Below are positions 3,786 through 28,487 of a DNA stretch of 30,099 bases, in pieces. Numbering within the stretch: position 1 is the first letter of the stretch; every line of letters starts with the position of its first letter. A program made the translations under genes and the position numbers. The stretch comes from a virus. Below the pieces are notes generated by a model. That model saw only the letters and a program-made list of their open reading frames with translations, had not been told where the DNA came from and did no database searches. The stretch lies in IMG/VR virus record IMGVR_UViG_3300025889_000632, positions 1 to 30,099 of that record; one strand, written 5' to 3'.

Positions 3786-4052
3786 TTAGTTTATCTTCTT
3801 CAATTTGTTTTCATAAGATGTGTAATCGAACTTGGTTTCACACTTTAAACATTCCAGGATCCAATGATGGTATCCATGTGCGAACTGACTTTTCAAGGCA
3901 TTTAACCGATACCCACAAGCTGGGCAGTCCTGACCATGCGCATGCCGATGGATGGTGAACTTCGGAAATGCGTTGCATTCACACGCTTCCTTCGGGCCGG
4001 GAATGTCCCCGTTCCCATGGTAGGAACAATCATGAAACAGCGATTTTTTCAT
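3786..4052 (-). CDS. Cys/His-rich zinc-binding protein, 88 aa
   Basis: The ATG at 4050-4052 is preferred because it overlaps the upstream stop as ATGA and has GGGGAG eight bases upstream. An in-frame ATG at 4079 has its purine-rich site abutting the codon and would overlap the upstream gene by 31 bases. Candidate zinc ligands are C43-P-A-C46 and C68-L-K-C71, a classic zinc ribbon, plus C9, C24, C26 and His residues around 35-39. The protein is basic. It sits between the beta-helix protein and a small membrane protein in the replication operon. Zinc ribbons of this size occur in nucleic-acid-binding accessory proteins; function is not established. Confidence 0.65.
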   Translation of the reverse strand: MKKSLFHDCSYHGNGDIPGPKEACECNAFPKFTIHRHAHGQDCPACGYRLNALKSQFAHGYHHWILECLKCETKFDYTSYENKLKKIN

Positions 4053-8766: not shown

Positions 8767-9662
8767 GCTGGCACCTCCTTCTTCACCCGTTTGCAAAATG
8801 CATCCAGGTTGTTTAAGACAGTTTCAGCACGCCCGATTGGCAGATGCTCCATAGTCATGCCCTCTTGAAGCCACCCGTTCTTGCGCATCCACTTGTCGGC
8901 ACGAAGCCCAAGAGCCCCGAGAGACTTTTGCAGTTTGTCGAACACATCCTCCGGAAGCGTTTCGAAAACCGGTTTTGGCTCTTCCGGTGGCGGGAACGGT
9001 TTGTCATCATCATCGACAACTTCAGCATCAACCACCTGGGGCTCTTCCTTCTTGCCCTTCTCCTTTTTGGGTTTTACTGCTTTCGGGGCAGGCGCCTCTG
9101 CAGATTTGGAAACCAGTTTGATTTCTTTGGTTGGCGCTGGCTGCGATGGTGCCTCTGCGTAGTCCTCCAACCCGCACGAAATACCAGGCGCAAGAAGTGA
9201 AATGCCATCGGCCAAAACGCGATTCTGAAGCATTTTATGTGGAAATGATTCCCATGCAGATCCTTTTCGGACAAGGTTTGCTCGACGGGCATCTGCCATA
9301 GAAAACGATACGGTGACCGTCTGCCCATCAAGAGTAAATTTTGCAATAGCTTCTCGTGTCTCAGGGGTTTGATCTGGTTCTCCTCCGTGTTTTACCCACT
9401 CAATGGTCCCCCCTTGCTCAATAAACTTTGCGTGAGAATATCTAGGCTTCTGTGAAAGCTTTCCCCCGATTATGTGGTATTGCTTGTCGAGTTCAATTGG
9501 GGATTTACGCTCACACATGCATGCCATGGCGAGCACTTCACCTGCCTCCACTCTTTCAAGTCCGAGCAAACCGGACTTTGCAAATGCCATGCCCATTTCA
9601 TGCATGGCTGTCATAGGATCATTAATCTTATCCCAAACTTGTAGTTGACTATCGTTATTCAT
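8763..9662 (-). CDS. RecT-like single-strand annealing protein
   Basis: 299 residues. The core (about 18-170) matches RecT-family layout: an N-terminal helix, then the strand segment KQYHIIGGKLSQKPRYSHAK, IEQGGTIEWV, a strand FTLDGQTVTVSFSMADARRA, and the characteristic GSAWESFPHKMLQNRVLADG at 134-153 (family pattern W-x-x-Y/F-P-x-x-M-L-x-x-R). Residues about 171-240 are a Pro/Lys/Glu-rich linker and about 240-299 a small helical tail with RADKWMRKNGW. It anneals complementary ssDNA during phage recombination and is paired with the next-gene exonuclease. No strong Shine-Dalgarno is seen at the start; leader hairpins lie at 9709-9779. Confidence 0.8.
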   Translation of the reverse strand: MNNDSQLQVWDKINDPMTAMHEMGMAFAKSGLLGLERVEAGEVLAMACMCERKSPIELDKQYHIIGGKLSQKPRYSHAKFIEQGGTIEWVKHGGEPDQTPETREAIAKFTLDGQTVTVSFSMADARRANLVRKGSAWESFPHKMLQNRVLADGISLLAPGISCGLEDYAEAPSQPAPTKEIKLVSKSAEAPAPKAVKPKKEKGKKEEPQVVDAEVVDDDDKPFPPPEEPKPVFETLPEDVFDKLQKSLGALGLRADKWMRKNGWLQEGMTMEHLPIGRAETVLNNLDAFCKRVKKEVPA

Positions 9663-9708
9663 GATGTTTTACTGAATGCAGTTTATCTTTCATGGTTTTT
9701 GTTGTTCG

Positions 9709-9738
9709 AACCCCGTTCAGAAATGAGCGGGGTTTTTT
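9709..9738 (+). terminator. Rho-independent terminator, plus orientation
   Basis: Arms AACCCCGTTC (9709-9718) and GAGCGGGGTT (9725-9734) pair with one G-T match around a six-base loop and are followed by TTTT. On the minus strand the same hairpin has no U tract, so it works only for plus-strand transcription, although no plus-strand gene lies to its left. It would stop antisense reading out of the replication block toward the glycan cassette. Confidence 0.6.
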
Positions 9739-9740
9739 AT

Positions 9741-9779
9741 GCCCCACTCCCGTTTGCATCCAACAGCAGGGAGTGGGGC
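9741..9779. repeat. Perfect 11-bp inverted repeat
   Basis: GCCCCACTCCC (9741-9751) and GGGAGTGGGGC (9769-9779) are exact complements separated by 17 bases. It lies only two bases after the plus-strand terminator and in the leader of the recT-like gene. It may be an operator or an RNA hairpin shaping translation of the annealase. No U tract follows on either strand. Confidence 0.6.
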
Positions 9780-9829
9780 GATTCGTCGCATAACGGTCGT
9801 TCCTGCAATCACGCAGGTATGAATCCTAG

Positions 9830-9946
9830 TTATACGTTTTCCCTATCATCACTCGATGGAGGGAAATTCGCTTCGTGATGCTGCCAGCATCCGGAAAGTA
9901 TCATTGCGGCATAAGCACCGCAGCAGATTAAAATGATTATCGTCAT
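9830..9946 (-). CDS. Tiny lipoprotein-like peptide, 38 aa
   Basis: The frame starts MTIIILICCGAYAAMILSGC and ends ...DDRENV. Residues 3-20 are hydrophobic and LSGC at 17-20 fits a lipobox with C20 as the lipidated residue, which would leave a mature peptide of 19 residues with a polar, acidic end. The start shares ATGA with the stop of the ribbon-helix-helix gene, good support for a real coupled gene. A positively charged N-region is missing, so a simple membrane-anchored peptide is the alternative. Role unknown; early membrane peptides may act in superinfection exclusion. Confidence 0.5.
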   Translation of the reverse strand: MTIIILICCGAYAAMILSGCWQHHEANFPPSSDDRENV

Positions 9947-10086
9947 ATCTTTGCCTTTTTAATCTTTGACTCAATAAGTTGTTCCACGTAACCTTCCAAA
10001 GTCACGCCTTCCGCTGCTGCGAGCATCCGGAGCTTCCGATGGATCGGCTCTTTTACCCGCAGTGTTTTGGTTTTTTTCTTGCTCAT
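9943..10086 (-). CDS. Ribbon-helix-helix regulator, 47 aa
   Basis: The frame encodes MSKKKTKTLRVKEPIHRKLR, then MLAAAEGVTLEGYVEQLIES and KIKKAKI. This is a textbook Arc/MetJ-type fold: a basic N-terminal strand TKTLRVKEP at 6-14, helix one IHRKLRMLAAAEG at 15-27 and helix two TLEGYVEQLIESKI at 29-42. Proteins of this type dimerise and insert the paired strand into the DNA major groove. A perfect palindrome overlaps its own start codon and predicted -10 box (10085-10100), so autorepression is likely. It is the first gene of the minus-strand early block and sits divergent from the glycan cassette, so it may also affect that cassette. Confidence 0.75.
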   Translation of the reverse strand: MSKKKTKTLRVKEPIHRKLRMLAAAEGVTLEGYVEQLIESKIKKAKI

Positions 10087-10167: not shown

Positions 10168-11160
10168 ATGAATGTTCTTCTGCTGCCTTGCCACACAGTT
10201 CTTGAATACGACCTTCTCAGGATGTGGTCTGATATACCAAATGTGAATTTGATGTCTCCCGGGAGCTACTGGGAACCTGACAAAGGATCCGCATTAAGAC
10301 CTCCTTTAGGTTTCAGTGTTCCCAAAGAGTGGATTGACGGGTGGAACACTATTAAGCCAGGCGATCTCCTTGACCACAAGCTCTACATAAACAAACAAGC
10401 AGTGGAACCATTTGACATTATTGTTGTCATGCATGAGTGGAAATACATATTCCGAAACTGGCATGCATTAAAAAACAAAAATGTCGTTTGGTATGACATA
10501 GGGCAAACAGAACCGGGTGACGAGACTGACAGGATAAAGAGACTCAAAGAACTTGGAGTGAAAATTGTCAGATATTGGGATGGATACCAGACGCGCAAAG
10601 ATTATCAGGGGCATGACGCAGTGATCCCATTCGGGAAGTATCCTGAAGATTTCAACAAGTGGGAAGGAGGCACAAAGAGCGTTATTGGGTTGTGCCAAGC
10701 ATTTAAAAAAAGAGCGGATGTCTGCAGGTATGAATGCTGGGAAACAAGCACAAATGGACTGCCAAGAGCATTGTTCGGGAATGATAATGATGGAGTTCCA
10801 GGGTGGGTGGGGGAAAAGGATTATTCCCATCTTATAAACGGGATGCTGAAATACAATGCTATGTGGTATGGTGGGACCAAGCCTGCTCCATACACGTTAG
10901 GCCTGATGGAGGCAATGTTCATTGGTATACCAATTTATGCAGTTAGGAATCCTGGGTGGGAATCTGCTTTGGTTGACCTTCTTCCGTATTTTAATTTAGC
11001 AAACAGCTCTGAAGAGCTTCGCTTGATTTTGAGCAGTAATCTTGAAAAGCCAAAACATGTTTTGCGCTCTGTCTCAGAACATGAGCAGGAAACCGCTTTA
11101 GATTTATGGGATGCGAATAAGATAAAACGTATGTGGGAGAAATTATTTAAAAGCCTATGA
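10168..11160 (+). CDS. GT-B-like glycosyltransferase, 330 aa
   Basis: The N-terminal half (MNVLLLPCHTVLEYDLLRMW, then FDIIVVMHEWKYIFRNW and NVVWYDIGQTEPGDETDR) looks like the acceptor Rossmann domain of a GT-B enzyme. The C-terminal half carries the donor-site pattern APYTLGLMEAMFIGIPIYA (240-258) in which E248 and the following G-x-P are typical of GT4-related families. Donor and acceptor cannot be told. It is the first gene of a plus-strand operon and overlaps the next gene as ATGA. The region is more AT-rich than the replication genes, hinting at acquisition from elsewhere. It could modify a lipopolysaccharide or capsule, or the virion. Confidence 0.65.
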   Translation: MNVLLLPCHTVLEYDLLRMWSDIPNVNLMSPGSYWEPDKGSALRPPLGFSVPKEWIDGWNTIKPGDLLDHKLYINKQAVEPFDIIVVMHEWKYIFRNWHALKNKNVVWYDIGQTEPGDETDRIKRLKELGVKIVRYWDGYQTRKDYQGHDAVIPFGKYPEDFNKWEGGTKSVIGLCQAFKKRADVCRYECWETSTNGLPRALFGNDNDGVPGWVGEKDYSHLINGMLKYNAMWYGGTKPAPYTLGLMEAMFIGIPIYAVRNPGWESALVDLLPYFNLANSSEELRLILSSNLEKPKHVLRSVSEHEQETALDLWDANKIKRMWEKLFKSL

Positions 11161-12080
11161 AAATTTTCTGTGATTATGTAGGGCATTTTGATTTGCTGTA
11201 TTCATTGTTTGCGACTTTAAGCAAGAGACTAGGACATGAAATGTCGGTTCCCAATCACGATCGTTCATGGGCTGAGAAACACAATCTTTACAACATACAT
11301 AGCGAGTCGCTTAGAAATGCCTTGAAAGGCTTTCGATACTTGAGTCATGAAGAATTCATCAAAGAAGATTTTGACATTGTCATATGCACTGCTGAATTAA
11401 ATGAGAAGCCCATGAAAAAACTGTTTGATGATCATGGGTCTTGCCGGTCTTTTGTTCGCCACATAGGTAATCTGTGGGAACAACCATTGGTTGCAAAAAA
11501 CGTGATGGCAGCAATCATGCACCCAATGAAAGATGACCTTAACATTCTTCACTACATACCAGAACATCCTGGATATTTCAGTCCAAAAATTCACAATAAA
11601 TCAAATGAATTGTTCGCATTGGACAACTACACATTGAATTATGAGATTTCGAAAAATACATTTAATGAGATCAAAAAAAATCTTAAAAACACAAAAGCTA
11701 TAATCAGACCATTTTCTTCAGATCATAAAAATTTAGTATCATGGTTTAACAGGTCGAAAGCGTATGTGCATTTAAAAGCAAATGGAGGTTGTGGCTTTAC
11801 CCTAAGGGAAGCCCTTTTCTGCGCAATTCCAGTTATTGTCAATATGTCATTTGTTTATTCTCATTTCACCATACCAACAAAATTTTTAAAGGATGGCGTT
11901 AATTGCATCGACTTCGACACAAAACTGCGTCCATTTGAACAAAGCATGGAAGTCCTTGAAGATTGGCTGGATCCAGCTCACTACCAAAAAAGGTGCTGGG
12001 ATGCGGTAAGTTATAGTAAATTAAAAATCAATTTTGAAAAAGAATCTAAATCAGTAAACAAGTGGATCAATAAACTGTAA
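11157..12080 (+). CDS. GT-B-like glycosyltransferase, 307 aa (paralogue of 12560-13585)
   Basis: The protein opens MKIFCDYVGHFDLLYSLFAT then LSKRLGHEMS..DRSWAEKHNLYNIH, the same pattern as the later gene at 12560 (MKVLTDLHHRDLFYSNHLLF, EKRLGFEL, SEWAKEGLWSIH). The donor-site region is HLKANGGCGFTLREALFCAIPVIV at about 205-228, with G-F-x-x-x-E-A and a following P. The middle segment FVRHIGNLWEQP resembles the glycan-acceptor side. It shares ATGA with the preceding gene. Function is inferred by fold pattern only; the pair probably adds successive sugars. Confidence 0.6.
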   Translation: MKIFCDYVGHFDLLYSLFATLSKRLGHEMSVPNHDRSWAEKHNLYNIHSESLRNALKGFRYLSHEEFIKEDFDIVICTAELNEKPMKKLFDDHGSCRSFVRHIGNLWEQPLVAKNVMAAIMHPMKDDLNILHYIPEHPGYFSPKIHNKSNELFALDNYTLNYEISKNTFNEIKKNLKNTKAIIRPFSSDHKNLVSWFNRSKAYVHLKANGGCGFTLREALFCAIPVIVNMSFVYSHFTIPTKFLKDGVNCIDFDTKLRPFEQSMEVLEDWLDPAHYQKRCWDAVSYSKLKINFEKESKSVNKWINKL

Positions 12081-12083
12081 ATT

Positions 12084-12563
12084 ATGATACATCCTACAGC
12101 AGAAATTGAAGAGGGAGCATTTGTCCATCCAACTGCAAGGATCTGGCATTATGCACACATCAGGAAAGGAGCACACATCGGAGAGAACACAATCATTGGC
12201 AGAGGCGTATTTGTGGACATGAATGTCCATGTAGGAAAGAATTGTAAGGTGCAGAACTATGCCTGCCTTTACCATGGCACTGTTGTTGAGGATGGTGTCT
12301 TTATCGGACCTCGGGCGATCACTACGAATGACAAACACCCTCGCGCTATCAATAAAGACGGGACAATTAAGACAGAGGATGACTGGCAATGTGGGCAGGT
12401 GGTGATTGGTGAAGGCGCAAGCCTGGGTGCTGGAGTTATCGTCCTCCCAGATGTAATCATTGCCCCAGGAACCATGATTGGTGCTGGAGCAGTGGTAAGT
12501 AAAAACACAACTGCTGGAACATATAAAGGTGTTCCTGCGGTTAACTACGGAGATCCAGAATGA
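12084..12563 (+). CDS. Hexapeptide (left-handed beta-helix) sugar acetyltransferase, WbpD/WlbB-like
   Basis: 159 residues made of hexapeptide turns: IHPTAEIEEGAFVHPTARIW, IRKGAHIGENTIIGRGVFVD, NVHVGKNCKVQNYACLYHGT, VVEDGVFIGP, then VVIGEGASLGAGVIVLPDVI and MIGAGAVVSKNT. The order, the WHYAHI segment at 21-26, the loop TNDKHPRAINKDG at 81-93 and the GVPA ending at 149-152 closely follow the enzymes that N-acetylate UDP-3-amino-2,3-dideoxy-glucuronate in O-antigen synthesis. These are trimers using acetyl-CoA. The partner dehydrogenase and aminotransferase are absent here, so the sugar would come from the host. It is flanked by two related glycosyltransferases; ATGA overlap with the next gene. 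Confidence 0.85.
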   Translation: MIHPTAEIEEGAFVHPTARIWHYAHIRKGAHIGENTIIGRGVFVDMNVHVGKNCKVQNYACLYHGTVVEDGVFIGPRAITTNDKHPRAINKDGTIKTEDDWQCGQVVIGEGASLGAGVIVLPDVIIAPGTMIGAGAVVSKNTTAGTYKGVPAVNYGDPE

Positions 12564-13585
12564 AGGTGCTGACCGACCTGCATCACCGTGATCTATTTTA
12601 TTCAAATCACTTGTTGTTTGAGAAACGATTGGGTTTTGAATTATTTAGGCCTATTGGTTCTGAATGGGCAAAAGAAGGTTTGTGGTCAATCCATGAAGTC
12701 TGCCATAACGATATAAATATGGGGATTGTGACGCAATTTCTTGAATTAGATAAAGGTGAGAATCTTACAGGGAATAAATCTTTTGAAAAAGATGGAATAT
12801 GGAACTTACATAATGACTTTCACTCATTTTTCCATAAATGTATCCCTCTAAATTTATTCAAAGAAACAAAATTTGATATCATCCTTCCAACACATTGGTG
12901 TCACTACCATCTGTGGAAAGAATTAAGAGACAAATATCAACCCCAAGCGAAAATGGTTTATCATGTCGGAAACATAGAGAGAACAGAAACACTTGAACAC
13001 GTTATAAGGTCTGTCCCTTACCCAGGAGAATGCAAAACTGATGTATTAGCCCATCAAGAACTCAATTTCGAAATTTACAAACATGTCCCTGTTAACACTA
13101 AAACAAAAAAAATAACTTCAGTCACACATGGTTACATGTTTAAAGATGAATATTTAAAATACAAGCAAGCAATGCCTGATTTTGAATTCAAATATTACGG
13201 AATCAATTCGCCTGATGGAATATTAAACGGAACACAAGAAGTCGCTAATCAAATGAAAATGGCAAACATTGGATGGACAACAAAGGTGCATGGTGGGCTT
13301 GGTCATTCAAATATGGGATGGATGTATTCAGGAAGACCTGTAATAACAAATATGAGCCAGCATAGGCTTTATGGAGAATGTGCGTTAAAGCTTTTTGAAC
13401 CGAATGAAACATGTATCGATATTGAATCCGGAACGACAGAAGATGTTTGCAAAAAGATAAAGGAATGGATGGTCCCTGAAAAAGGAAATGAACGAGGAGC
13501 TGCTGCAAAAAGAAGATTCCATGAGGTAATCAATTATGATTCAGAAGCTGAATCGGTGAAAAAGTTTCTTTCGAACATATTGTAA
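12560..13585 (+). CDS. GT-B-like glycosyltransferase, 341 aa (paralogue of 11157-12080)
   Basis: The opening MKVLTDLHHRDLFYSNHLLF with EKRLGFELFRPIGSEWAKEG and LWSIHEVC is similar to patterns I associate with glycosyltransferases of phages and aquatic bacteria. MVYHVGNIER at about 134-143 corresponds to FVRHIGNLWE of the paralogue. TTKVHGGLGHSNMGWMYSGRPVITN (around 230-255) is a donor-site-like segment, with G-x-G-x-x-N-M replacing the usual E. That makes it an unusual or degenerate donor pocket. The gene is AT-rich. It ends ten bases before a short glycosyltransferase stub. Confidence 0.6.
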   Translation: MKVLTDLHHRDLFYSNHLLFEKRLGFELFRPIGSEWAKEGLWSIHEVCHNDINMGIVTQFLELDKGENLTGNKSFEKDGIWNLHNDFHSFFHKCIPLNLFKETKFDIILPTHWCHYHLWKELRDKYQPQAKMVYHVGNIERTETLEHVIRSVPYPGECKTDVLAHQELNFEIYKHVPVNTKTKKITSVTHGYMFKDEYLKYKQAMPDFEFKYYGINSPDGILNGTQEVANQMKMANIGWTTKVHGGLGHSNMGWMYSGRPVITNMSQHRLYGECALKLFEPNETCIDIESGTTEDVCKKIKEWMVPEKGNERGAAAKRRFHEVINYDSEAESVKKFLSNIL

Positions 13586-13594
13586 GTAATTCAT

Positions 13595-13723
13595 ATGATC
13601 CCAAAACAAGCGTTCTTTGTTTATGGTGAACAAAATGAAAACCCTATGCCTGATTTAGGGAAAAAGAACATTGATGATTTTAGAAAGCTGAATCCTGAAT
13701 GGAATGCACACCATGAACATTGA
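13595..13723 (+). pseudogene. N-terminal stub resembling GT32-type glycosyltransferase, 42 aa
   Basis: The frame starts MIPKQAFFVYGEQNENPMPD and continues LGKKNIDDFRKLNPEWNAHHEH. This matches the opening pattern of Gly_transf_sug/Och1-like enzymes: I-P-K-x-x-x-x-x-W/Y-x-G, then a P-x-P and K-x-x-I-x-S/D-F-x-x-x-N-P-x-W. The rest of such an enzyme, including its D-x-D, is missing, and the frame stops just inside the next gene's start. It is either a remnant left when the downstream gene was inserted or replaced, or a short peptide still translated to couple the next gene. Confidence 0.5.
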
Positions 13724-14504
13724 GGTTTGCATCATCGGGTGGAATCGTCCAGCATACTTGAAGCAAACCTTGGATGCAGTTTCCAACCTGACCAAATCGC
13801 CGTATGACATCAACGTGTTTCTGGACGGTGACAATTTGTCTGAACAGAGCATGGATTGTTATGACGTTGCGTGCCGTTGCTGTGGGGTAGAGCATGTGAA
13901 ACTGAACAGTTCACGCGAGGGTATACCGGCACAGTGGTGGAAAGCGTTGTGCAGGACCGAGGAGGAAGGCGTGGATGCGGTTCTGGTATTGGAAGATGAC
14001 GTGGTGGTGGAACCGCTCTACCTGGACGCTATTGAAAGCATGCTGCGCACATACAGTGACCCTCGCGTATCCTTTGTGTCATCATTCCCAGACAAGATTA
14101 ACCCCTGCGCACCTTCCCTTCCCTGGACCACCGGGGACCATTTGCTTGGCGTGGCTACAACCAGGGAATCGTGGAATGCGATAAAACCTTACTACCAGCT
14201 TTTCCTTGACGGTGAGTTTCCAACACTGGAAGGAAACCGCGGTCCAAATCCTCTGGCAGGACAAAATGTTGCACTCTACACCGCAATGGCTCTTAATGGA
14301 AGCGTGCCACTGTTTTCAAAATATCGCTTGGCAAAGTATATCGGTGTGCATGGTGTGCATGGCACTCGGGAAGACTACGAACAGAAACAGTGGAGCACAT
14401 TGCCAATCGACGCGTCTTTCATCCATGAACCAATGAATCAATGGTGGCTTGACAATGCCGTCCATTACGTTAAGGAACAATACATCCATGGCCTCACTAA
14501 CTGA
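13704..14504 (+). CDS. GT-A (GT2/GT13-like) glycosyltransferase, 266 aa
   Basis: The protein reads IEVCIIGWNRPAYLKQTLDA, a GT-A nucleotide-binding start, then INVFLDGDNLSEQSM with DGD at 41-43, and VDAVLVLEDDVVV at about 90-102, whose E-D-D at 97-99 serves the role of the D-x-D motif in GNT-I-like enzymes. NGSVPLFSKYRLAKYIG and HGVHGTREDY may shape the acceptor site. The start is either ATG 13704 or ATG 13713 (MNIEVC), the latter just ahead of the stop of the upstream stub. Codons are more GC-rich than in the four genes before it, suggesting a separate origin. It overlaps the next gene by 17 bases. Confidence 0.75.
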   Translation: MHTMNIEVCIIGWNRPAYLKQTLDAVSNLTKSPYDINVFLDGDNLSEQSMDCYDVACRCCGVEHVKLNSSREGIPAQWWKALCRTEEEGVDAVLVLEDDVVVEPLYLDAIESMLRTYSDPRVSFVSSFPDKINPCAPSLPWTTGDHLLGVATTRESWNAIKPYYQLFLDGEFPTLEGNRGPNPLAGQNVALYTAMALNGSVPLFSKYRLAKYIGVHGVHGTREDYEQKQWSTLPIDASFIHEPMNQWWLDNAVHYVKEQYIHGLTN

Positions 14505-15096
14505 ACACAACCTGGCCAAGTTAATTGAAACATACAGCCTGCACACGTTTGTGGAGTCTGGTTATGGTAATGGTGGCAGTTTCAGGTTTGCCAAACAACA
14601 CGGGTTCCTTCAGTGGTTCAGTTGCGATGTGATAAAGGAATCCGCAATGAAGGGCCGGGATGCTTGGCCTGAAGATTGTGTTGCACATTGCAACTCAATT
14701 ACCATGGTGTCAGCAATACAGCAAGCTCGCATGGTGCTTGGCATTGATATGGGCAATGTCTTGTGGTGGCTTGATGCCCATTTCCCAGGAGTGGATACAG
14801 GATTTTTAGACTGGGAAAGTAGCCATGATCAGTTTGGCATAACCAACCCAGCAGAATCAGAGCTGCAAGCAATCATGCTCGGACCTCACGAAAACGATGT
14901 CATACTTATCGACGATGCATTTTTGTTTCGTGCCGGCCTTATCAATCATCGCCTGGAAGACAGAGTGCCTGCTGTTTACAAAAGGTTTTTAGGATCACTA
15001 GAACCGTTTCTGGATTCCCTATCAGCTACCCACAGGATTAAGCAAACAGAAGGCATCACTGGCGCCTTGAGCCTATACCCAAAGGCAGTAGAGTGA
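14488..15096 (+). CDS. Rossmann-like, possible SAM methyltransferase, 202 aa
   Basis: The start ATG 14488 (MASLTEHNLAKLIE) is chosen because AAGGA lies 11 bases upstream; an in-frame ATG at 14449 would lengthen the overlap. HTFVESGYGNGGSFRFAKQ at 19-36 occupies the place of the SAM-binding glycine loop, WFSCDVI at 43-49 the acidic strand, and VLWWLDAHFPG (91-101) with DVILIDDAFLF (137-147) two further strands ending in Asp pairs. This arrangement resembles TylF/Mtf-like and phage small-molecule methyltransferases. No substrate can be named. Position among glycosyltransferases suggests it caps or modifies a sugar. Confidence 0.55.
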   Translation: MASLTEHNLAKLIETYSLHTFVESGYGNGGSFRFAKQHGFLQWFSCDVIKESAMKGRDAWPEDCVAHCNSITMVSAIQQARMVLGIDMGNVLWWLDAHFPGVDTGFLDWESSHDQFGITNPAESELQAIMLGPHENDVILIDDAFLFRAGLINHRLEDRVPAVYKRFLGSLEPFLDSLSATHRIKQTEGITGALSLYPKAVE

Positions 15097-15689
15097 AAAC
15101 CAATAGCCAAGCATACCAGGATGTCGCTGCTTCTATAATAACTCCTGGCAAAGGGAGATACCTTGAGATTGGATCAGGAATTCCAGATCAAGAATCAAAT
15201 ACGTATGTTCTAGACACCGTTTTTGGATGGTCAGGTATATGCATTGATGCAGCAAATTACGATTACAGTTCTCGTTCATGTAAGTTCGTGAACACAGAAG
15301 CTGTCCGCTGGTTGCAGAATCACTGCAGGGATGAACGCTTTGACTACATAAGCTTCGACATCGATGAAACCACAACTCTAGCAGTTCAGGCTGTCTTGGA
15401 TAATAATGTTCAATTCAGGTTTGCAACTGTTGAGCATGATAAATACAAGCATGGATACAAGTATCAAAACTCTCAGCATCAGTTCCTGTCTTCAGCTGGT
15501 TATGTTGCCATGTTCATCGATATTTGCACTTCATGGGATGAGGCGATGATATTTGAAGACTGGTGGTGCCACAGAGATGTTTGCGACAAAACACTTGGAG
15601 TTGGATTAAGCCCATTGGAAGCAATCAGGCAAGTCGAATCCAACATCAATTGTTCTCCAAAAACCGTTCAGCTTTCTCAACTGAAGTGA
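15093..15689 (+). CDS. FkbM-like methyltransferase, 198 aa
   Basis: It begins with GTG that overlaps the preceding stop (GTGA). SQAYQDVAASIITPGKGRYL at 5-24 is the usual FkbM-family opening, followed by motif I YLEIGSG at 23-29, SNTYVLDTVFGWSGICIDAA at 35-54, and FDYISFDID at 83-91. FkbM-type enzymes O-methylate sugars and related hydroxyls using S-adenosylmethionine. It closes the glycan cassette and its last 44 bases overlap, tail to tail, the 3' end of the large virion gene on the other strand. Confidence 0.75.
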   Translation: MKTNSQAYQDVAASIITPGKGRYLEIGSGIPDQESNTYVLDTVFGWSGICIDAANYDYSSRSCKFVNTEAVRWLQNHCRDERFDYISFDIDETTTLAVQAVLDNNVQFRFATVEHDKYKHGYKYQNSQHQFLSSAGYVAMFIDICTSWDEAMIFEDWWCHRDVCDKTLGVGLSPLEAIRQVESNINCSPKTVQLSQLK

Positions 15690-18600
15690 ACACAGGTCCA
15701 ACTCTTTTTCCGGATGGATCCCACACACGAACACCTGATCGATTGTCCACCTGTATGGCGCGGAATCCGGATGGGCTCATATATATGGCGCCGCCACGGT
15801 TGTTAAGGGTGCGGGAAGGAGAAAACCTTGTGCTTTCAGGAAGCCCAGCTGCTACTACCTTAGCTTTTGCTTCTTGCTGTAACTTGAGAGCATCTTCGTA
15901 TTCAGTGAAGAGCGGGACGGAGTTCTTTACTTGATTGAAATCTCCTGATGGCGCCTCGATGATGCCTCTTGGATCCTTCACCATCAAAACCACATCTGGT
16001 CTTCCAGCCATGTCGTAAGGCCAATTTGGTGGAGCATATGTATCGTCCCAAGCTACCCTGGCAATTGGCTTGAATCCAAATTCAGAATAGAGATTAGGCA
16101 GGAATCCGTTGACATCGAATGCATCCAAGGTGGTTGAAACGCGAGCAGCTTCTTTCAATATTGGACGGATATCAGCTTTTGATGTTGGATGCTTGAATAC
16201 AGAAACGAGATCACCGTCTTTTGTAACAGCGACCCCTGCTAATTTATCATCGGAAAGGAAAAGGGCAGTGTCTGATTTATTATAAAAATCAAGATCTTTT
16301 ACCTGAACCGCAGCTCCAAGCTTATGGTCTTTCTCTGTGAGTGCTATTGCGGAGTGGAATTGGCTGCCAGCCCTTGGATTGTTAACGCTGAACCTGCTCC
16401 ACGGTAGACTTGGGCGAGATTCTTTTTGCCGCTTTCCTCTGCCTTTAGACTTTCTTCCTCCGCTGTCAGTTCTGGGAACTCTGCGTCCAGTATCGACGTG
16501 TCCTCCACGTCCATATAGTAGATTTCCTCCAGACTGCGCCGCTTGCCTCGCTTCCTGTATGCTTCCTGGGATCGTTGCAGATTCTCCACCATCTCGGGAT
16601 CCAGCCCACGACGGAGGAGAGATTCTGCCTCCGATAAGTTCTTGTCGTGATCTTTCATCGTCATTAAGATTCCATTTTTCTCGTGCATCTGCAATCACTT
16701 TTTTATCCCGCCTCGTTTCACTTGGGAATATCTGCCTGATGCCCTCCCATGTAATCGATTGCATTTGACGGGGGAGGAGTCCTCGCAATTCTGCTGCTTT
16801 TCTATATGCGTCAGCATATACATGATATGTTCCATTAACACCTGGACTGCCTTTTTTTGTTACTCCTGTTCCAAAGTTGTGTGAGACTGGAGTCGCATTC
16901 GCACCATATGGCTGAAGATGTCCCGCTGCTACTGCGTGGGTGTCAATTGTAACATCACCAAGAAGACTGTTTGGATCGATGATGTTGTTGAAAAACGATC
17001 GAACCTTGTGCATTTCACCGAGTTGATTGGAAATGTTTTCCATGCTCCCATCTTTCAATATGGAAACTGCTTTCTCGATTTCAGACACAGAACCCCATCC
17101 GTTTTTAGCATTGTCACCGTCCTTAGTGACATCTATCTGCTTAGGAGTTCCATCAGGCGCAATGACTCGATAATCTCGCCCATACAATGTTTGAGCCAGA
17201 ATCCGAATTGCCCATCCCTGAAGATCTGAAGTTCCATCTAATTCAGCAATCGTTTTTCCGATGATCTTTTCAAAGTCTTCTCTCCTGTCATTCTTTGCTT
17301 TCTGATCAAGATCTTTATTGTATTTTAATCGTCGCTTCTTCTGTGTGGCAGTTTCCCCTTTTTTTGCAGTTTTCTTTTTCTTCTTGGGAGCTTGTGCGGC
17401 GTCAATAATCTGTTCGGCTTGTTCCCAAACCAAACCATCATCAAGTCTGGTGTCTTGGTGGTTCCTCCAGATGTCTAGCACTTGTTCTGCTTGCGCCACA
17501 TTCATGAACCAGTTTTTCTGCGGACTCAGAACAGCCATTACGCCAGCAGTTTGAGGAGCTGTATAATTGTAATGATTTGCAAAATCGTTAGCTATTGAGA
17601 ATGCTCCATCATACCAAAGCGTTGCCATCTCCCTTAGATCACCAGGGAAAGCATCATGAATCGCCAGCAAATTGTCCACCATCCAATCGATGTATGCTTC
17701 GCGTTTCTCTTTTGGATCAGTGATAGACCGGATCCTTTCTGGAACATGGTCGTAACTCATTTTCTCCATGTGATCAGCTAAAGCAATATCACCAACCATG
17801 TCTCCAGATATGTTGCTGGAATTAGGTGTAGAAACAGGTTTTGCTTTCGTTCCAAGTTTGGCTGTTCCAACGCGAAAATTATCTTGTGGCATCCTCTGCG
17901 GACTCATCATCCGCTTCACCTTCAAGTGATCGAATGGTCCGAATCCAAGCGGGGTTCCTTGTGGTGATGCGTTGTCCAAAGATCCAATACGTTCAAGTCT
18001 CAAGCTTGAGTAAATGCGTTCTGATCCAGAATCCCAGGAAGAGTAAAACGGATTGATTCCTTTATTGTTTCCTTGCAGGAATGCGTTTACAATGTTGTGC
18101 TTTTCATCTGACAATCCAGTTTTCCCAGGCAAACCGTTTTTGTGGTTGTCGATGTATTTTCGAGCATCCGCAAAGAACTGATCGACATCATTATTCCATG
18201 CACGAATCTTCCCTGAGTCCTGCCATTGCTTTGCCCGGGCAGCAACCTGGTCAAGGTTGATCATCCGGACAAGTCGATTTCCCTGACTGTCAATGAACCA
18301 TTCATATGGAAGGTATCGACGTTCCACTGCTGGAATGGATCCACGATTGCGATACATTGAATTGATCCATGAATCACCTTTGCTACGAGTCCCGATACCA
18401 AAGTATTTTGAAGACAGAACCTCCCCATCCTTGATCGCCTTATTTATTGCATCAACCGTTCCTCGAAAATTTTCAAAACCAGGCATGTCACGCAATTCAT
18501 CTTGCATGTATTTGCCTCTGGTTTCAGTTCGATTTGGATTGACCGTTCCATCGTTATTGTATCGATACCGAGTTCCAATGTTCTGGTTATCCTCTGTGAC

Positions 18601-20823
18601 GACATCCTGGTCAGCGACCGCATCTTTGGTTTTTTTCCGATTATCTTTCAGCTGCTGACTGAATTGTTTTTTCGGAATGACTTGAACAGTTCCGTCTTTC
18701 GCAGTCTGAGTGAAGGATTTGATAGGACCATCGAAGTCAAAAGACTGATTCCTGACTGGATCAAGAGATACCTGGCTTGGTGCTTCCTCGCCTCGACGAG
18801 CAGCGTCATACTGTCGATCCAGTTGTTTAGTGTATTTCTTATAACTCTTTGAAAGTTTGGAATCTTTCTTCAGTTTCGATCGAAACACATTATTGTCGCC
18901 ATACCCCAGAGAATTGAGTCCTTCACCTCCGCTCAACAAATTGAGTGCGTTGAATACTCCATATTTCGCCTGCTGCCACGCTTTGGAAAGCGGATCCAAT
19001 CCAAGCTTCACATCCTTCCCAAGTGGCGCCATCGCGCTTTTCAACCCTTGTCCAAGCTTCGATTTACGAACATAATTGTGAAGCCCTTGACCAGCGGTTT
19101 CTGCCATGAACTGTTCCGAAAAAAGCTCACGTATCACCCAGTCTGGTTCCCCTGCATAAATACGAGTCTCGATTTCACGGACCTTTTTGCCGATGTCTTC
19201 TGGAGTAATCGACGCACCCTTTTGCTCTCCTTCAAGCAAGCTTCGAGCGTAACCGCGTTTCATGCTGTCCAGGTTCCCATAAAGCTCGGTCATCTTTTCG
19301 CGGATGTAGCCCTTGTCCACCAGTCCAGAGTCCCACATCGATTCTCCGACTTCATGCAGGATGTCCAATCCCGGCGCGTTGCCATCGCCATTGACAATGA
19401 TGGACCTGGTCCCGGGATCATAATACGCACTGGATCCAAGAACCTTTTGGCCTTTTGCAAACTCATCCCCAGGCAGAATCTTGACATCGACCTTTCCGCG
19501 CAATAACTCCGATGCTCCGACTATATTTTCCCGGGCATCCTGTGGAAGCTTGTCGAATGTTTCATTGGATCCTTTGTGTTCACGCCTGAAAAGCTCTATG
19601 CTATTTGCCATGCGCTGGGCATCAGAGGCACCCGTCAAGGCATCGACTCCTCTCCCTACCACACTGCCTCCTGCACCCGCTACAGCTCCTCCTAGTGCGC
19701 CACTGAAGGCTTCTGCTGTGGTGTCTGCAGCAGCGGCACCCATTGCGCCACCGATCACGGCACCACCAGCGGCACCCTGCGCAGCAGACGCTCCTAAACG
19801 CAAAGCAGGATCCACAGCTCTCAAGGCATTTGCTGCTCCCCGCACTTTAGTGGGCAATGCCTTATTCTTGGAGATTCTCTCCATGAGCCCAAAGTTTGTC
19901 GGGAATTCAGGAAGATCCTTGATTGACTTTGTTAAGGCTGCGCCAAACGGCGCCAACCGATCTGCAGCTTCCACAGCAATCCTGCCTGCTGCAGTTCGCG
20001 CAGGATCCACAAATGCCCCAGCAGCGGTGGCGAGATTCTTTGCTCTTCCGATGTTCTCTGCTGTTTTCGGGAATCTTTCGACGAATCCTGATTTTGCCTT
20101 GTCAATTGCACCACCTACAGCCTCGATCCCCCGCCCTGTGGCTGTCCCTGCTGCCCTGAGCCCTCTCCTTGCCCCTACACCTGCCAGCTTGCCTGCACCT
20201 TTCGCCAGAGGCGCTCCTACTGCGCCAATGTCCATAAAATAAGATGCGCCTTCAGCCATGGCTGGATCGACATCCACATCATCGGTCCCCATATTTTGAG
20301 TGAACTGGAGGTGATCAATTAAGTCTTCCTCACCCAATCGGGCTTTCTCGCGCATTGCTTCAAGCTTTCGGATCTCACGCCATGCCCTAAACCTCTCACG
20401 GGTGTATTCCTCGTCCCTGGTGAGCTTGTGCTTGACCTTTTGAGTCATGATGCCCAAGTCTGCCGTTCCGCGCAGAACCCCTTCTCCCAGCGAATTTATG
20501 ATGCGCCTGCCTCTGCCTTCGACCAGGTTACCCAAAGCAGCTTTGCCTCCTGCCTTAAGCTCTCCTGCCATGGATCCGACAATGTTCCATGCATCATCCA
20601 TGGTGAAGTCTTGGTCCTCACGTCCTTCAGACCATTCCTGCCAAGCTTCGAACTCTGCATCAGTGTCACCAGGCACGTAGGTCATGTCATCCAGTGGAGG
20701 TGGGACATCTTCATCTTCTATATATTCAAAAGACGATGAACTTGAAATTGGCTCATCGTCTATATATTCAAAAGCAGAAGAGCTGCTTTCAACATGCTCT
20801 TCATCAAGATATTCAATAGGCAT
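15646..20823 (-). CDS. Large polyvalent virion protein, 1725 aa
   Basis: Multi-domain protein of the sort injected with phage DNA. Residues 1-50 hold a tandem acidic/Ser repeat (EYIDDEPISSSSS type). Residues about 195-420 are Gly/Ala-rich with possible membrane-active helices (GAVIGGAMGAAAADTTAEAF). ILHEVGES at 488-495 resembles a zinc metallopeptidase helix but lacks the second His (H-E-x-x-E), so that domain may be inactive. A helical domain includes LSPQKNW (1099-1105) and DTHAV (1294-1298), a pair I associate with uncharacterised phage polyvalent proteins. RFSV and LDAFDVNGFLPNLYSEFGFK near 1565-1584, with GRPDVVLM, form a GNAT-like C-terminal domain. About 16370-16660 the frame encodes an odd Gly/Arg/Ser-rich stretch (see separate entry). 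The start shares TAATG with the upstream gene. Likely internal core/ejection protein. Confidence 0.75.
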   Translation of the reverse strand: MPIEYLDEEHVESSSSAFEYIDDEPISSSSSFEYIEDEDVPPPLDDMTYVPGDTDAEFEAWQEWSEGREDQDFTMDDAWNIVGSMAGELKAGGKAALGNLVEGRGRRIINSLGEGVLRGTADLGIMTQKVKHKLTRDEEYTRERFRAWREIRKLEAMREKARLGEEDLIDHLQFTQNMGTDDVDVDPAMAEGASYFMDIGAVGAPLAKGAGKLAGVGARRGLRAAGTATGRGIEAVGGAIDKAKSGFVERFPKTAENIGRAKNLATAAGAFVDPARTAAGRIAVEAADRLAPFGAALTKSIKDLPEFPTNFGLMERISKNKALPTKVRGAANALRAVDPALRLGASAAQGAAGGAVIGGAMGAAAADTTAEAFSGALGGAVAGAGGSVVGRGVDALTGASDAQRMANSIELFRREHKGSNETFDKLPQDARENIVGASELLRGKVDVKILPGDEFAKGQKVLGSSAYYDPGTRSIIVNGDGNAPGLDILHEVGESMWDSGLVDKGYIREKMTELYGNLDSMKRGYARSLLEGEQKGASITPEDIGKKVREIETRIYAGEPDWVIRELFSEQFMAETAGQGLHNYVRKSKLGQGLKSAMAPLGKDVKLGLDPLSKAWQQAKYGVFNALNLLSGGEGLNSLGYGDNNVFRSKLKKDSKLSKSYKKYTKQLDRQYDAARRGEEAPSQVSLDPVRNQSFDFDGPIKSFTQTAKDGTVQVIPKKQFSQQLKDNRKKTKDAVADQDVVTEDNQNIGTRYRYNNDGTVNPNRTETRGKYMQDELRDMPGFENFRGTVDAINKAIKDGEVLSSKYFGIGTRSKGDSWINSMYRNRGSIPAVERRYLPYEWFIDSQGNRLVRMINLDQVAARAKQWQDSGKIRAWNNDVDQFFADARKYIDNHKNGLPGKTGLSDEKHNIVNAFLQGNNKGINPFYSSWDSGSERIYSSLRLERIGSLDNASPQGTPLGFGPFDHLKVKRMMSPQRMPQDNFRVGTAKLGTKAKPVSTPNSSNISGDMVGDIALADHMEKMSYDHVPERIRSITDPKEKREAYIDWMVDNLLAIHDAFPGDLREMATLWYDGAFSIANDFANHYNYTAPQTAGVMAVLSPQKNWFMNVAQAEQVLDIWRNHQDTRLDDGLVWEQAEQIIDAAQAPKKKKKTAKKGETATQKKRRLKYNKDLDQKAKNDRREDFEKIIGKTIAELDGTSDLQGWAIRILAQTLYGRDYRVIAPDGTPKQIDVTKDGDNAKNGWGSVSEIEKAVSILKDGSMENISNQLGEMHKVRSFFNNIIDPNSLLGDVTIDTHAVAAGHLQPYGANATPVSHNFGTGVTKKGSPGVNGTYHVYADAYRKAAELRGLLPRQMQSITWEGIRQIFPSETRRDKKVIADAREKWNLNDDERSRQELIGGRISPPSWAGSRDGGESATIPGSIQEARQAAQSGGNLLYGRGGHVDTGRRVPRTDSGGRKSKGRGKRQKESRPSLPWSRFSVNNPRAGSQFHSAIALTEKDHKLGAAVQVKDLDFYNKSDTALFLSDDKLAGVAVTKDGDLVSVFKHPTSKADIRPILKEAARVSTTLDAFDVNGFLPNLYSEFGFKPIARVAWDDTYAPPNWPYDMAGRPDVVLMVKDPRGIIEAPSGDFNQVKNSVPLFTEYEDALKLQQEAKAKVVAAGLPESTRFSPSRTLNNRGGAIYMSPSGFRAIQVDNRSGVRVWDPSGKRVGPVFTSVEKAERFLENN
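16344..16694 (-). other. Protein-like frame nested in the large virion gene
   Basis: In the +1 frame relative to the 1725-aa gene lies an open frame whose part SLLRRGLDPEMVENLQRSQE, AYRKRGKRRSLEEIYYMDVE and LDAEFPELTAEEESLKAEES looks like an ordinary helical phage protein, whereas the main frame over the same bases is Gly/Arg/Ser/Pro-rich. No clear ribosome binding site serves the internal ATGs. It may mark a pair of compensating frameshifts in the main gene (one near 16640-16670, one near 16390-16430) or, less likely, a nested gene. Confidence 0.35.
20717..20818 (-). repeat. 42-bp tandem repeat coding for EYxDDE-Ser motif
   Basis: TCTATATATTCAAAAG occurs at 20717-20732 and 20759-20774, and a diverged copy at 20801-20818, an exact 42-base spacing. 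In the protein it gives three copies of about 14 residues: EYLDEEHVESSSSA, FEYIDDEPISSSSS, FEYIEDED. The repeat keeps frame and forms the acidic N-terminus of the large virion protein. Confidence 0.75.
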
Positions 20824-25222: not shown

Positions 25223-27465
25223 TACCAAAGTCCTCCATGAGTTCCTTGTCGTCGTTGGCCTGGAGTGCTTCCACTCAAGGCTGAATGCAAACGGACTCGA
25301 CCATCAGTCCCTTCAATTTTAATTTGAAAATATGCACCCCTGCGATCAACGAGCAGGTTATGAGTGTAATAAGCGTACATGTCCAATTGAGTTCCATCTG
25401 CGTCCAATAGTGTCCCACCATTCGGCTCTGTCGGTTCCAGGACTACAGAGTAATCTTCTCGACCTTCTGTCGCATGATCCTGGTTTGGGTTTGCGATATC
25501 CCAATCATCAATTCCAAACGTAAGGTATTTCGTCCTTGACGGAAAGGTATAAGTTGTATCGTCCACCAAAACTGTCTCCTTCAAAACCCCATCGACAACA
25601 GCTGTCACCTTGTATTTCGGCGCCCAGGTTGAGATAAAAAGCTTGGCTTGCTGGATCCTGCGGCGATTGCCGGCTTCAAACCCGTAGCCCCGAGTCAGCA
25701 CCATGAAATCGATCGGACGATCTTCAACCTCGTAAGCATTAGTGCAAATGACCTGCACATACGGATCATTCGATGAAATATAAAACGAACTTGAATTCGT
25801 GAACCTTACTCCGCAGTCCAATTGGGAGATGCTGTCTGTGTTATGAGTCCACCCATCGGTATTGAACCCGTCCCAAAGGTTATCTGCAGGCATCTCGCAT
25901 GGATCCACGCTTGAATCAGTCCCGACACCCCACAGCTCACCAGACTCCGCATCTGTGACATTAGTCTCCAAGCTTTCGATGACATTATCGCCAGCATCAT
26001 TGACCAATTCATTGTCGGCATCATCGATAATTTCACGATGTCTGGTGACCCTGACAGATGTCCCGTTATTCACCTGAAGAGTGCTACCATCTTCCGGATG
26101 CCCTTTTAAGAGAACATCACAATAGAAGCTGTTCTGAGCAATTGGAACACCTTCAAGCTCTCCATATTCATAAAGCCCTACAACACCCGAATACGTTACA
26201 TAAAACAGGTGCTCCGATCCTTGCCAGTCTGCGATGAAAAAATATTTAACCTCAACCGCATCCCCGTCATCATAACCTGCCCAGGCCTGATTCAAAAAAT
26301 CATAAACCAGAACCGCATTGTTCTTTTGACTCCCATCAATAGGGACACTCAAATAATACCGATCTCTCCAATAAGCTCCACACGCAGTTTCTCTTGCTAT
26401 TGAAAAATCAATCTTATCTATCACAGGTTGAATCTGCGATGACTGAGGCAAAGTCACTCCCTGAAGCTTGTTGAGTTCTGTTTGCTTCAACGATACGACT
26501 CCTCGCTGAGACAGGAACCACAAGTCTCCACCAATGCTGGCGACTGACCTTTGCCCGACCAATCCATATTCGGTGGTGATTTGATCCAGCGTTGCATTCG
26601 ATTCCCAATCACCGATCAAATTGCTGACCGCATAAATGGAAGTGTCCTTAAAAACGATCACTGTCGTGTCGTTAAATTTGACGCATCGAACAATCTCATC
26701 TGAATCACCCTGATTGATTTTGAACGATGAATAGACAGGATCGTAGCTGGTGTAATCCAGAATGTCAGAAACCGCAACATGATCGCCCTTATTCCCGCCA
26801 GACGGAACATGAGGAACGATTAATCTGTTCTGGAAAAAGAGTGAGTTCTTTGCGTTTGGGATGTTCTCAGTGCCTCCCGCACCAGACGCACCTGGAGCTT
26901 CAATAAATCCCTCTTCAAAATTTGATAGAACAAGATGTTTTTCATTTGGTCCCCGGCTCAATATGCATTTATCAAATGCCTGTGTGAACCAATACAAATC
27001 TTCTGTGTTTGTGTCCTGATATTCAGAGGTTGTCGGAACGGTTAAAGAGACGCTGACGGGTATTTTCTCAGGAGAATTGCCTGGACGAAATCTCCAAATA
27101 TTTATGCTTGCTTGGTTGGTGGACGAGGCTATTAAAAACCAATCATAACCATCAGGGTCATTCCATACACCAACCCCATACACATCTTCGAAAGCACCGG
27201 TTCCAATAATCCTTTGCCAGTTGATGTCTCCATTCTGCCATTCAATGTCCCATTCAAATCCCCTAACATCACTGAACGAAAGAGGCATCATTCCTTTCCT
27301 GGGCTCGGCTACTCCGAATCGGAATCTGGCATTCCGAGCATCTGCGACATAACCAGGCTGTAGCAACTGTGGGGCAGTCCGCATATCCACACCGATGAAT
27401 CCGCGATCCCCATCCATCTGAGGAACGTCATCATTTTGCGAATACGTTCTATGCCCTGTCGTCAT
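25222..27465 (-). CDS. Large tail protein, beta-propeller-like, 747 aa
   Basis: It starts with DDVPQMDGDRGFIGVDMRTA, PQLLQPGYVADARNARFRFG and VAEPRKGM, a pattern recurrent in podovirus tail proteins near the tail nozzle. The middle has repeated aromatic/beta blocks (LVLSNFEEGFIEAPG, NKGDHVAVSDILDYTSYDPV, GDLWFLSQRGVVSLKQTEL, YYLSVPIDGSQKNNAVLVYD) consistent with a beta-propeller. The C-terminus around SVVLEPTEPNGGTLLDADGT, VDRRGAYFQIKIEGTDGRVR may be a separate domain. It overlaps the glycosyltransferase gene upstream by ATGA. Likely tail nozzle or tubular component. Confidence 0.65.
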   Translation of the reverse strand: MTTGHRTYSQNDDVPQMDGDRGFIGVDMRTAPQLLQPGYVADARNARFRFGVAEPRKGMMPLSFSDVRGFEWDIEWQNGDINWQRIIGTGAFEDVYGVGVWNDPDGYDWFLIASSTNQASINIWRFRPGNSPEKIPVSVSLTVPTTSEYQDTNTEDLYWFTQAFDKCILSRGPNEKHLVLSNFEEGFIEAPGASGAGGTENIPNAKNSLFFQNRLIVPHVPSGGNKGDHVAVSDILDYTSYDPVYSSFKINQGDSDEIVRCVKFNDTTVIVFKDTSIYAVSNLIGDWESNATLDQITTEYGLVGQRSVASIGGDLWFLSQRGVVSLKQTELNKLQGVTLPQSSQIQPVIDKIDFSIARETACGAYWRDRYYLSVPIDGSQKNNAVLVYDFLNQAWAGYDDGDAVEVKYFFIADWQGSEHLFYVTYSGVVGLYEYGELEGVPIAQNSFYCDVLLKGHPEDGSTLQVNNGTSVRVTRHREIIDDADNELVNDAGDNVIESLETNVTDAESGELWGVGTDSSVDPCEMPADNLWDGFNTDGWTHNTDSISQLDCGVRFTNSSSFYISSNDPYVQVICTNAYEVEDRPIDFMVLTRGYGFEAGNRRRIQQAKLFISTWAPKYKVTAVVDGVLKETVLVDDTTYTFPSRTKYLTFGIDDWDIANPNQDHATEGREDYSVVLEPTEPNGGTLLDADGTQLDMYAYYTHNLLVDRRGAYFQIKIEGTDGRVRLHSALSGSTPGQRRQGTHGGLW

Positions 27466-28487
27466 TTATAAAAGCCAGCCTTCACTAGAGTCTGCTCTAA
27501 GGTTTTATTCGACTGTTCCCAATTCAACCTCATCCCTCTTTCTGAAGCTTTCAGCTCCTTCTCTGTCCTTCTTCGGTTATAAAGCTCACGCATTCGATCG
27601 ACAAGATCTTCCTTTTTTGGCTTCGCCCAAAGGCCACCATTGTCGTAATGGTTTTTGGCAGGTTCTAAGTCGAACCCAACAGGAAAGCCAACTGAATCAT
27701 CGAAAAACTCGGTAATACCGCCAAATGGAACGGCAATCACTGCTCTCCCAGTTGCCATCGCTTCATGTTGCATCAAACCCCATCCTTCCCCCTTGCTGGC
27801 AGAAACAAAGCAATCAATTTTCTCATACCATTTCGCAAGCTGATTTCGGGTCCAGAATGCCTTCATCAATTTGATTCTGTCATCATCAAAATTAAGATCA
27901 GGATCATCAGGATAACATTTAATGACCAGACGAACGTCCTTGACTCGCTTTGGAAAAGCCTTTCTCCATGCATCAACAACATCTTGAAGTCCTTTTCGAC
28001 ACCCACCTGCTGCGGTTCTCCCAGCGGTTCCGAAAACATAATAGTCTTTCTGAATTGGTGGGGCATATTTGAAGATGCTTGTATCGATGCCCATGTTCAC
28101 TTTTGCCATGGGGCGCCTTACGCCTTGCGCATTGAACGTGGAAAGATTGAATGTGGATGGAACGATCACTAGCTCTGCTCTGTTGAGATTTAATATGGCT
28201 TCCTTTGGCAATCGTGTCGTTTCCCACATCGTATTGTAAACGATCTTTTTTTCTCCATCTGGATAGTAAGTTGGGCAATGGATCACCATCTCCCACGTTT
28301 CCAACTGATGTTTGTATACAATTGATTCCTGAATCAATTTAGGAATCTTCGCTTTGCTTAACTCTGTCGTGATCGGATATATTGTGGTATCCCTGCCAAG
28401 CTTCGAAAGTCCCTCTGTAACACGAAAAAGGTGGAGAGAATACGATGAGTATCCATCCACCACACCCCTCAGACATGATCTTTTCAT
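27462..28487 (-). CDS. GT4-family glycosyltransferase in the tail operon
   Basis: 341 residues with a GT-B fold. Acceptor half: RGVVDGYSSYSLHLFRVTEG, then EKKIVYNTMWETTRLPKEAI and AELVIVPSTFNLSTF at 105-119. Donor half: GTAGRTAAGGCRKGLQDVVD at 153-172, VIKCYPDD, IDCFVSASKGEGWGLMQHEA at 224-243 and MATGRAVIAVPFGG. E234 and E242 are the expected GT4 donor-site acids. It sits between the lysis-type genes and the large tail protein, with one-base spacing upstream and ATGA downstream, so it is made with virion proteins. It may glycosylate tail or fibre proteins, or modify the host surface late in infection. Confidence 0.8.
   Translation of the reverse strand: MKRSCLRGVVDGYSSYSLHLFRVTEGLSKLGRDTTIYPITTELSKAKIPKLIQESIVYKHQLETWEMVIHCPTYYPDGEKKIVYNTMWETTRLPKEAILNLNRAELVIVPSTFNLSTFNAQGVRRPMAKVNMGIDTSIFKYAPPIQKDYYVFGTAGRTAAGGCRKGLQDVVDAWRKAFPKRVKDVRLVIKCYPDDPDLNFDDDRIKLMKAFWTRNQLAKWYEKIDCFVSASKGEGWGLMQHEAMATGRAVIAVPFGGITEFFDDSVGFPVGFDLEPAKNHYDNGGLWAKPKKEDLVDRMRELYNRRRTEKELKASERGMRLNWEQSNKTLEQTLVKAGFYK

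Follow-up and report, generated by a model that had tools for sequence, protein, structure and literature searches.

The window analyzed here, i.e., the whole stretch of 30,099 bases of the uncultivated-virus record IMGVR_UViG_3300025889_000632, is a linear fragment harboring a compact set of glycan genes and lacking capsid, portal and terminase genes. Both of its arms are read leftward: the right one is a late operon, the final gene of which encodes a presumed internal virion protein of 1725 residues (hereinafter, the giant gene), and the left one comprises replication and recombination genes (encoding a RecT-like annealing protein, an exonuclease, a helicase, RusA and a primase). Between them, against both arms, lies the cassette in question (positions 10168-15689), consisting of seven genes (g1-g7) and the remnant, or stub, of a glycosyltransferase (GT) gene of the GT32 type (Table 1). 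All its frames are open on the strand named in the original prediction, which had been made from the sequence alone. The predicted coupling of the genes was confirmed as well: most junctions overlap, with ATGA at g1/g2 and g3/g4, GTGA at g6/g7 and further overlaps at stub/g5 and g5/g6, while g2 and g3 are separated by a 3-nt gap. The giant gene is convergent with g7 and overlaps it by 44 bases. Genes were called by a mechanical greedy non-overlap rule and not by a gene caller.

Table 1. Features of the window discussed in the text, with positions counted from its first base
Feature	Coordinates	Strand	Remark
g1, GT-B glycosyltransferase of an undescribed family, first gene of the cassette	10168..11160	+	AlphaFold2 and Foldseek
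g2, divergent paralogue of g4, GT-B-like	11157..12080	+	blastp to g4, E 2e-8
g3, left-handed beta-helix (hexapeptide) acetyltransferase, WlbB/WbpD-like	12084..12563	+	PF00132, E 4e-24
g4, GT-B glycosyltransferase of an undescribed family	12560..13585	+	AlphaFold2 and Foldseek
Stub, 42-codon remnant of a GT32 gene	13595..13723	+	36% over 39 residues to GT32 of L012/L044
g5, GT-A (GT2/GT-A-like) glycosyltransferase	13704..14504	+	PF00535, E 0.001, sub-threshold
g6, methyltransferase-like protein (weak)	14488..15096	+	41% identical gene in G035
g7, FkbM-like protein	15093..15689	+	tblastn to FkbM-annotated cyanophage proteins, E 5e-13 to 7e-8
Giant gene, presumed internal virion protein	15646..20823	-	3' end adjoins the cassette site group-wide, as do homologues
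Late-operon GT4-type glycosyltransferase	27462..28487	-	PF13692, E 6e-14
47-residue ribbon-helix-helix (RHH) protein	9943..10086	-	divergent from g1; HicB-type RHH, PF05534, E 1.2e-5
Promoter-like, sigma-70-like site	10123-10096	-	between the RHH gene and g1
38-residue lipoprotein-like peptide	9830-9946	-	also divergent from g1
436-residue protein	4049-5359	-	among the early genes; coiled-coil start, possible beta-helix
Second hypervariable gene	20823-21986		immediately upstream of the giant gene

Three of the cassette products had been taken for GT-B-like transferases, with structure prediction proposed as a check. For two of them the fold turned out to be GT-B, not a non-glycosyltransferase one: the AlphaFold2 models of g1 (predicted local distance difference test score, pLDDT, 96.4; alignment of 35 sequences) and g4 (pLDDT 93.2; 32 sequences) have their nearest matches among GT4-type enzymes, e.g., tll1591, BshA and MshA (Foldseek E 6e-11 to GT4-type GT-B enzymes for g1; E 2e-8, MshA/BshA-type, for g4). 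For g2, the assignment goes through its paralogy with g4 and a match to PF00534 below the cut-off (E 9e-5). In the alignments, read by eye, the E-x7-E signature is incomplete: g1, the family alignment of which has 22 invariant columns, keeps the second glutamate (E248) but has an invariant Ala240 in place of the first, and g4 keeps neither; therefore, the two were not filed as GT4. Neither family has a match in Pfam, PHROGs or NCBIfam, and tblastn against 50,697 phage records returned none for g1, g2, g4, g5 and the late-operon GT4, nor for a distant member of the g1 family.

The acetyltransferase call for g3 proved right, the best match in the PDB and closest solved relative being WlbB (3mqg, E 8.5e-26). 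No partner 3-aminotransferase or dehydrogenase occurs in the gene list of the window; the claim that genes of nucleotide-sugar synthesis are lacking is broadly correct, save that g3 itself is of the UDP-amino-sugar-acetylating type. The GT-A call for g5 (start perhaps at 13713) is backed by weak matches, including one to POMGNT1 (E 0.02). As for the two supposed methyltransferases, g7 resembles FkbM-annotated cyanophage proteins but yields no Pfam hit at E 1 and thus none to PF05050, the mark of FkbM, whereas g6 is at best weakly methyltransferase-like: its relative in a sister contig, G035, matches Methyltransf_11 only at E 0.039. Profile comparison of g6 with PF13578-type methyltransferases gave 11% probability, i.e., no real support, and g7 does not align with the FkbM family found beside capsid genes in other phages. 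The most likely start of g6 is ATG 14488, not TTG 14449. According to hydropathy, no cassette gene encodes a convincing membrane segment (g3 has a single borderline hydrophobic stretch, within its hexapeptide repeats), and the cassette is devoid of a flippase, lipid-carrier transferase or polymerase. Since the enzymes are predicted to be soluble, they would act in the cytoplasm, on a cytoplasmic acceptor.

Comparison with related contigs reveals that the cassette occupies an exchangeable glycan locus of a family of small tailed phages, flanked by the 3' end of the late operon on one side and by early genes on the other. Hand-made signature motifs of g1 and g4 retrieved sister phages having the structural module of the window and a g1 gene at the 3' end of the giant gene, and three extra scans (with a stub motif, an early-gene motif and a conserved structural protein) sampled the group; the motifs being exact, diverged members were missed. 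Single-protein motif scans of viral contigs (g4, giant virion protein, g1) gave no matches because exact 8-residue patterns were too strict, and RecT could not serve to mark sister phages, as these differ in their early modules.

Glycan genes were present in 18 of the 19 related contigs in which the site beside the giant gene was sequenced, a count that was not dereplicated (G002, G004 and G005 are near-identical). The exception, G037, has a lipoprotein-like gene and an integrase there and no glycan gene. Listed from the upstream end of the site towards the giant gene, with MT for methyltransferase, g5L for g5-related genes, SAM for S-adenosylmethionine, x180 and x270 as local labels for proteins without a known domain and x212 for a protein weakly matching PF03407, the architectures are as follows: g1-g4 (G002, G004, G005); g1-g4-GT32 (L012, L044); g1-MT-x180-x212 (G006); a radical SAM gene facing a single g1 on the strand of the giant gene (G008, G009); g5L-GT32-MT (G020, L132); g5L-GT32 (G025); g5L-GT2-g3 (G021, L145); MT-radical SAM-GT32-MT (G018); x270-radical SAM-x180-x212 (G022); radical SAM-x180-x212 (G034); g5L-x180-x212 (G038); x212 only, before the contig end (G031); g4-g3-g6-g7, the contig ending inside g4 (G035); and the eight-part set of the window. 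The copies of g3 and g7 in G035 are 73% and 52% identical to those of the window, respectively.

Direct evidence that whole cassettes are replaced as units between phages comes from three pairs in which near-identical backbones (~91-97%) flank unrelated cassettes: G005/G021 (92-97% nucleotide identity), G006/G020 (91-96%) and G009/G022 (~91-94%). In G005/G021, the homologous backbone breaks off ~40 bases short of the first cassette gene on one side; on the other, it covers about the final 40 bases of the last cassette gene. The sister cassettes are under purifying selection: the ratio of nonsynonymous to synonymous substitution rates (dN/dS), calculated from sister-phage cassettes only, as the genes of the window lack relatives close enough, was 0.0-0.25 for homologues of cassette genes (the top value belonging to a methyltransferase) and 0.02-0.05 for g1/g4 between L012 and L044. 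Hence, the cassette genes are not chance frames.

The same comparison bears on whether the cassette could be bacterial chromosomal DNA attached through misassembly, or a transient insertion with no role in the phage. The G+C content of g2 and g4 (0.36, against 0.44-0.53 in the arms) would fit such an origin, but independent contigs share the site, including G035 with its g4-g3-g6-g7 and G002/G004/G005 with g1-g4, and g1 is rare in cellular genomes (see below). Misassembly, which the original prediction had named as a possible objection, is ruled out by the agreement of so many contigs, and we consider this whole explanation to have next to no chance of being true.

The sister phages also clarify the stub. 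In the L012 and L044 fragments, a complete GT32 gene (PF04488, E 6.5e-5) directly follows g4, and the stub aligns with its N-terminus, lacking the DXD region. The scan with the stub motif revealed more GT32 genes in sister phages, with the N-terminus of that in L134 very like the stub. Both homology and position thus support the GT32 nature of the stub that had been proposed. In the simplest history compatible with the gene orders, the window cassette would descend from a g1-g4-GT32 core, the GT32 gene of which was later shortened; g5-g6-g7 were probably added behind the truncated gene, and g2-g3 inserted between g1 and g4.

Relatives of g1 and g4 are common in unrelated uncultured phages, where g4 lies no more than two genes downstream of g1 in 47 of 66 dereplicated loci (30 of 47, if only the loci fetched by the g1 motif are counted). 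A capsid gene is located on the same strand, six genes upstream or closer, for 19/36 g1 genes, compared with 24/427 of the remaining genes at these loci (Fisher 1e-12). Given the phylogenetic non-independence of the loci, the occurrence of g1 downstream of capsid genes of three families (HK97-type, P22-type and a third type) carries more weight than the p-value. Typical orders include protease - HK97 capsid - FkbM - g1 - g4 - GT4 - neck - tail and P22-type capsid - GT4 - GT4 - g1 - methyltransferase - ... - g4. A 131-kb phage, L101, harbors g1 - deacetylase-like gene - g2 - hexapeptide transferase - g4, i.e., the order of the window plus one extra gene. In L101, a GT4 gene (7275-9827) appears, by eye, to contain a long in-frame Hint/intein-like insertion.

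Among 84,980 species genomes, g1 was found at 11 loci only. Phage capsid genes are present at three of these, and the g1-g4-GT4 order typical of phages at a fourth, which lies on a short contig (L130). Another six belong to Bacillales or other Firmicutes, and in five cases GDP-mannose-type or other genes for sugar nucleotides are nearby; the remaining locus is a weak alphaproteobacterial match. The Firmicutes neighborhoods hint at GDP-sugar donors. At the Bacillales loci L121-L125, g1 is ~50% identical to that of the phage query L068 and stands beside the same kind of GT4, but these loci are cellular and have their own sugar-nucleotide supply. They also harbor repeated small proteins beginning with NIPNITPLISV..., which have no NCBIfam match and could be glycosylated surface proteins. 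The neighbor proteins of the Bacillales loci are presumably spore-surface-like; NCBIfam gave no confirmation and no weight is placed on this.

From these observations we infer the donors, acceptor, product, regulation and benefit of the system. Chances are about even that it is an exchangeable cytoplasmic glycosylation cassette with a phage virion protein as its acceptor. The GT-B enzymes g1, g2 and g4 and the GT-A enzyme g5 would transfer sugars from host nucleotide sugars to the acceptor, g3 would acetylate an amino sugar, and g6 and g7 would methylate the product. The virion protein would be modified jointly with the core late-operon GT4, and a swap of the cassette would change the glycan type of the particle. 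Virion proteins are indicated by the capsid neighborhood in other phages and by this GT4, which is kept at the same place in all sister phages with the position sequenced (homologues at ~530-550 bits); as in virion glycosylation systems, GT genes are found within or next to the structural operon, namely the late-operon GT4 here and capsid-side g1/g4 in other phages.

Several observations weigh against a virion acceptor. The cassette lies outside the late operon and is divergent from, or abuts, early genes; for swapped cassettes that lack g1/g4, no link to the capsid is known; and the activity of g1 and g4 is not assured, given their incomplete signature. Integrases in two relatives (G025 and, at the site itself, G037) are what lysogenic conversion would predict, and they agree with another reading, in which the enzymes remodel a surface glycan (the O-antigen or another) of cells that are infected or lysogenized, blocking superinfection, and swaps would track rival phages or host types. 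Conversion genes of temperate phages are often located between the late and early modules, as this site is, and coupling with early genes is seen in L044, L132 and G025. The same inference was made for the GT-rich hypervariable regions of pelagimyophages (PMC7029224). On the other hand, the absence of a membrane flippase, lipid-carrier transferase and polymerase, the close g1/g4 families inside capsid operons elsewhere and the core GT4 of the late operon all speak against a host-envelope target, which we regard as possible but less probable. Host exclusion and virion decoration had both been offered originally; the evidence tilts to the virion without settling the matter.

Glycosylation of hypermodified bases of phage DNA, as a defense against restriction, is improbable. 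GTs acting on DNA do exist in phages (Pyle 2024, as cited in PMC12619734), and g1 has a distant fold match to one phage GT, 9iqz (E 4e-8). However, no gene of modified-base synthesis was recognized in the window, itself incomplete, and the methyltransferase and acetyltransferase partners as well as the swapping of whole sets better suit a surface glycan.

A broader view may be entertained with somewhat less than even confidence: the site might be a glycotype locus, where an exchangeable cassette sets the surface glycan of the virion as a viral counterpart of capsule and O-antigen loci, built partly by the g1/g4 families serving capsid glycosylation across several unrelated capsid lineages. Several known systems partially resemble it. 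The gtrABC O-antigen conversion sets of P22-like and Shigella phages, which require a flippase and a polytopic transferase, are likewise exchangeable and likewise lie with the late genes on one side and the lysogeny region on the other; in contrast, the cassette has no flippase or membrane-bound transferase. Such sets belong to temperate phages and adjoin int/attP; an integrase occurs in the two relatives mentioned above and none in the window, which is a fragment. Pelagimyophages, large T4-like phages, possess a GT-rich hypervariable region of ~45 kb with tail fiber genes (PMC7029224). Variable GT-rich content within otherwise syntenic genomes is common to both, but the cassette described here measures 1-6 kb, is replaced as a unit at one exact site of ~40 kb phages and encodes other GT families. 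Mycobacteriophages have GTs by which subunits of the capsid and tail tube are decorated (Freeman 2023, cited in PMC12619734). The likeness lies in the capsid-operon position of the genes of g1/g4 relatives, and the differences in the swapping of the cassette at a fixed site and in the sequences of g1 and g4, for which the phage record collection, mycobacteriophages included, gave no match. The glycan cluster of cyanophage DSL-LC02 (OR032571) combines GT genes with an FkbM protein related to g7, but this phage is much larger, encodes GDP-mannose dehydratase and GDP-fucose synthase and lacks g1/g4. Judging by the open literature, novelty appears to lie in the exchangeable cassette site, both small and exact, in two GT families not found in the searched libraries and in the link of these families to capsid genes. 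These points, together with the stub as a residue of an ancestral third gene and the core late-operon GT4, were beyond the view of the original prediction.

Should the acceptor be the virion, phage glycan types would change by cassette exchange, like bacterial capsules, with consequences for adsorption, for decoy binding and for the recognition of phages by the immune system; a function would also be gained for two large GT families that the searched libraries lack. Should it be the host, the site would represent an unusually clear case of modular superinfection-exclusion loci. Under either reading, the g1-g4 pair is a testable marker, and each swap pair offers a natural experiment in which the main differences between two near-identical phages are the glycan genes and one ejection-type protein.

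As to regulation, the RHH protein encoded divergently from g1 is a candidate regulator, judging by its family and position, and a promoter-like site and a lipoprotein-like peptide were noted in the same region (Table 1). Searches of the window for tRNA and Rfam families gave no matches. Radical SAM proteins recur in the glycan cassettes beside GT32 or g1 (e.g., L152 15716-16645; L158 13227-14417; L112/L116, i.e., G009 and G008), some with a SPASM-like N-terminal domain. Homologues of the 436-residue early protein reside in a different accessory region in G002, G006 and G018; perhaps it is a mobile spike-like protein. The second hypervariable gene has homologues in G002, G005, G021, G009, G022, L187 and L191, with 33-66% identity in several phage pairs, the neighboring structural proteins of which are 90-99% identical. 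Its co-variation with cassette type was considered and dropped because the gene also differs within a single cassette type; it varies independently of cassette type.

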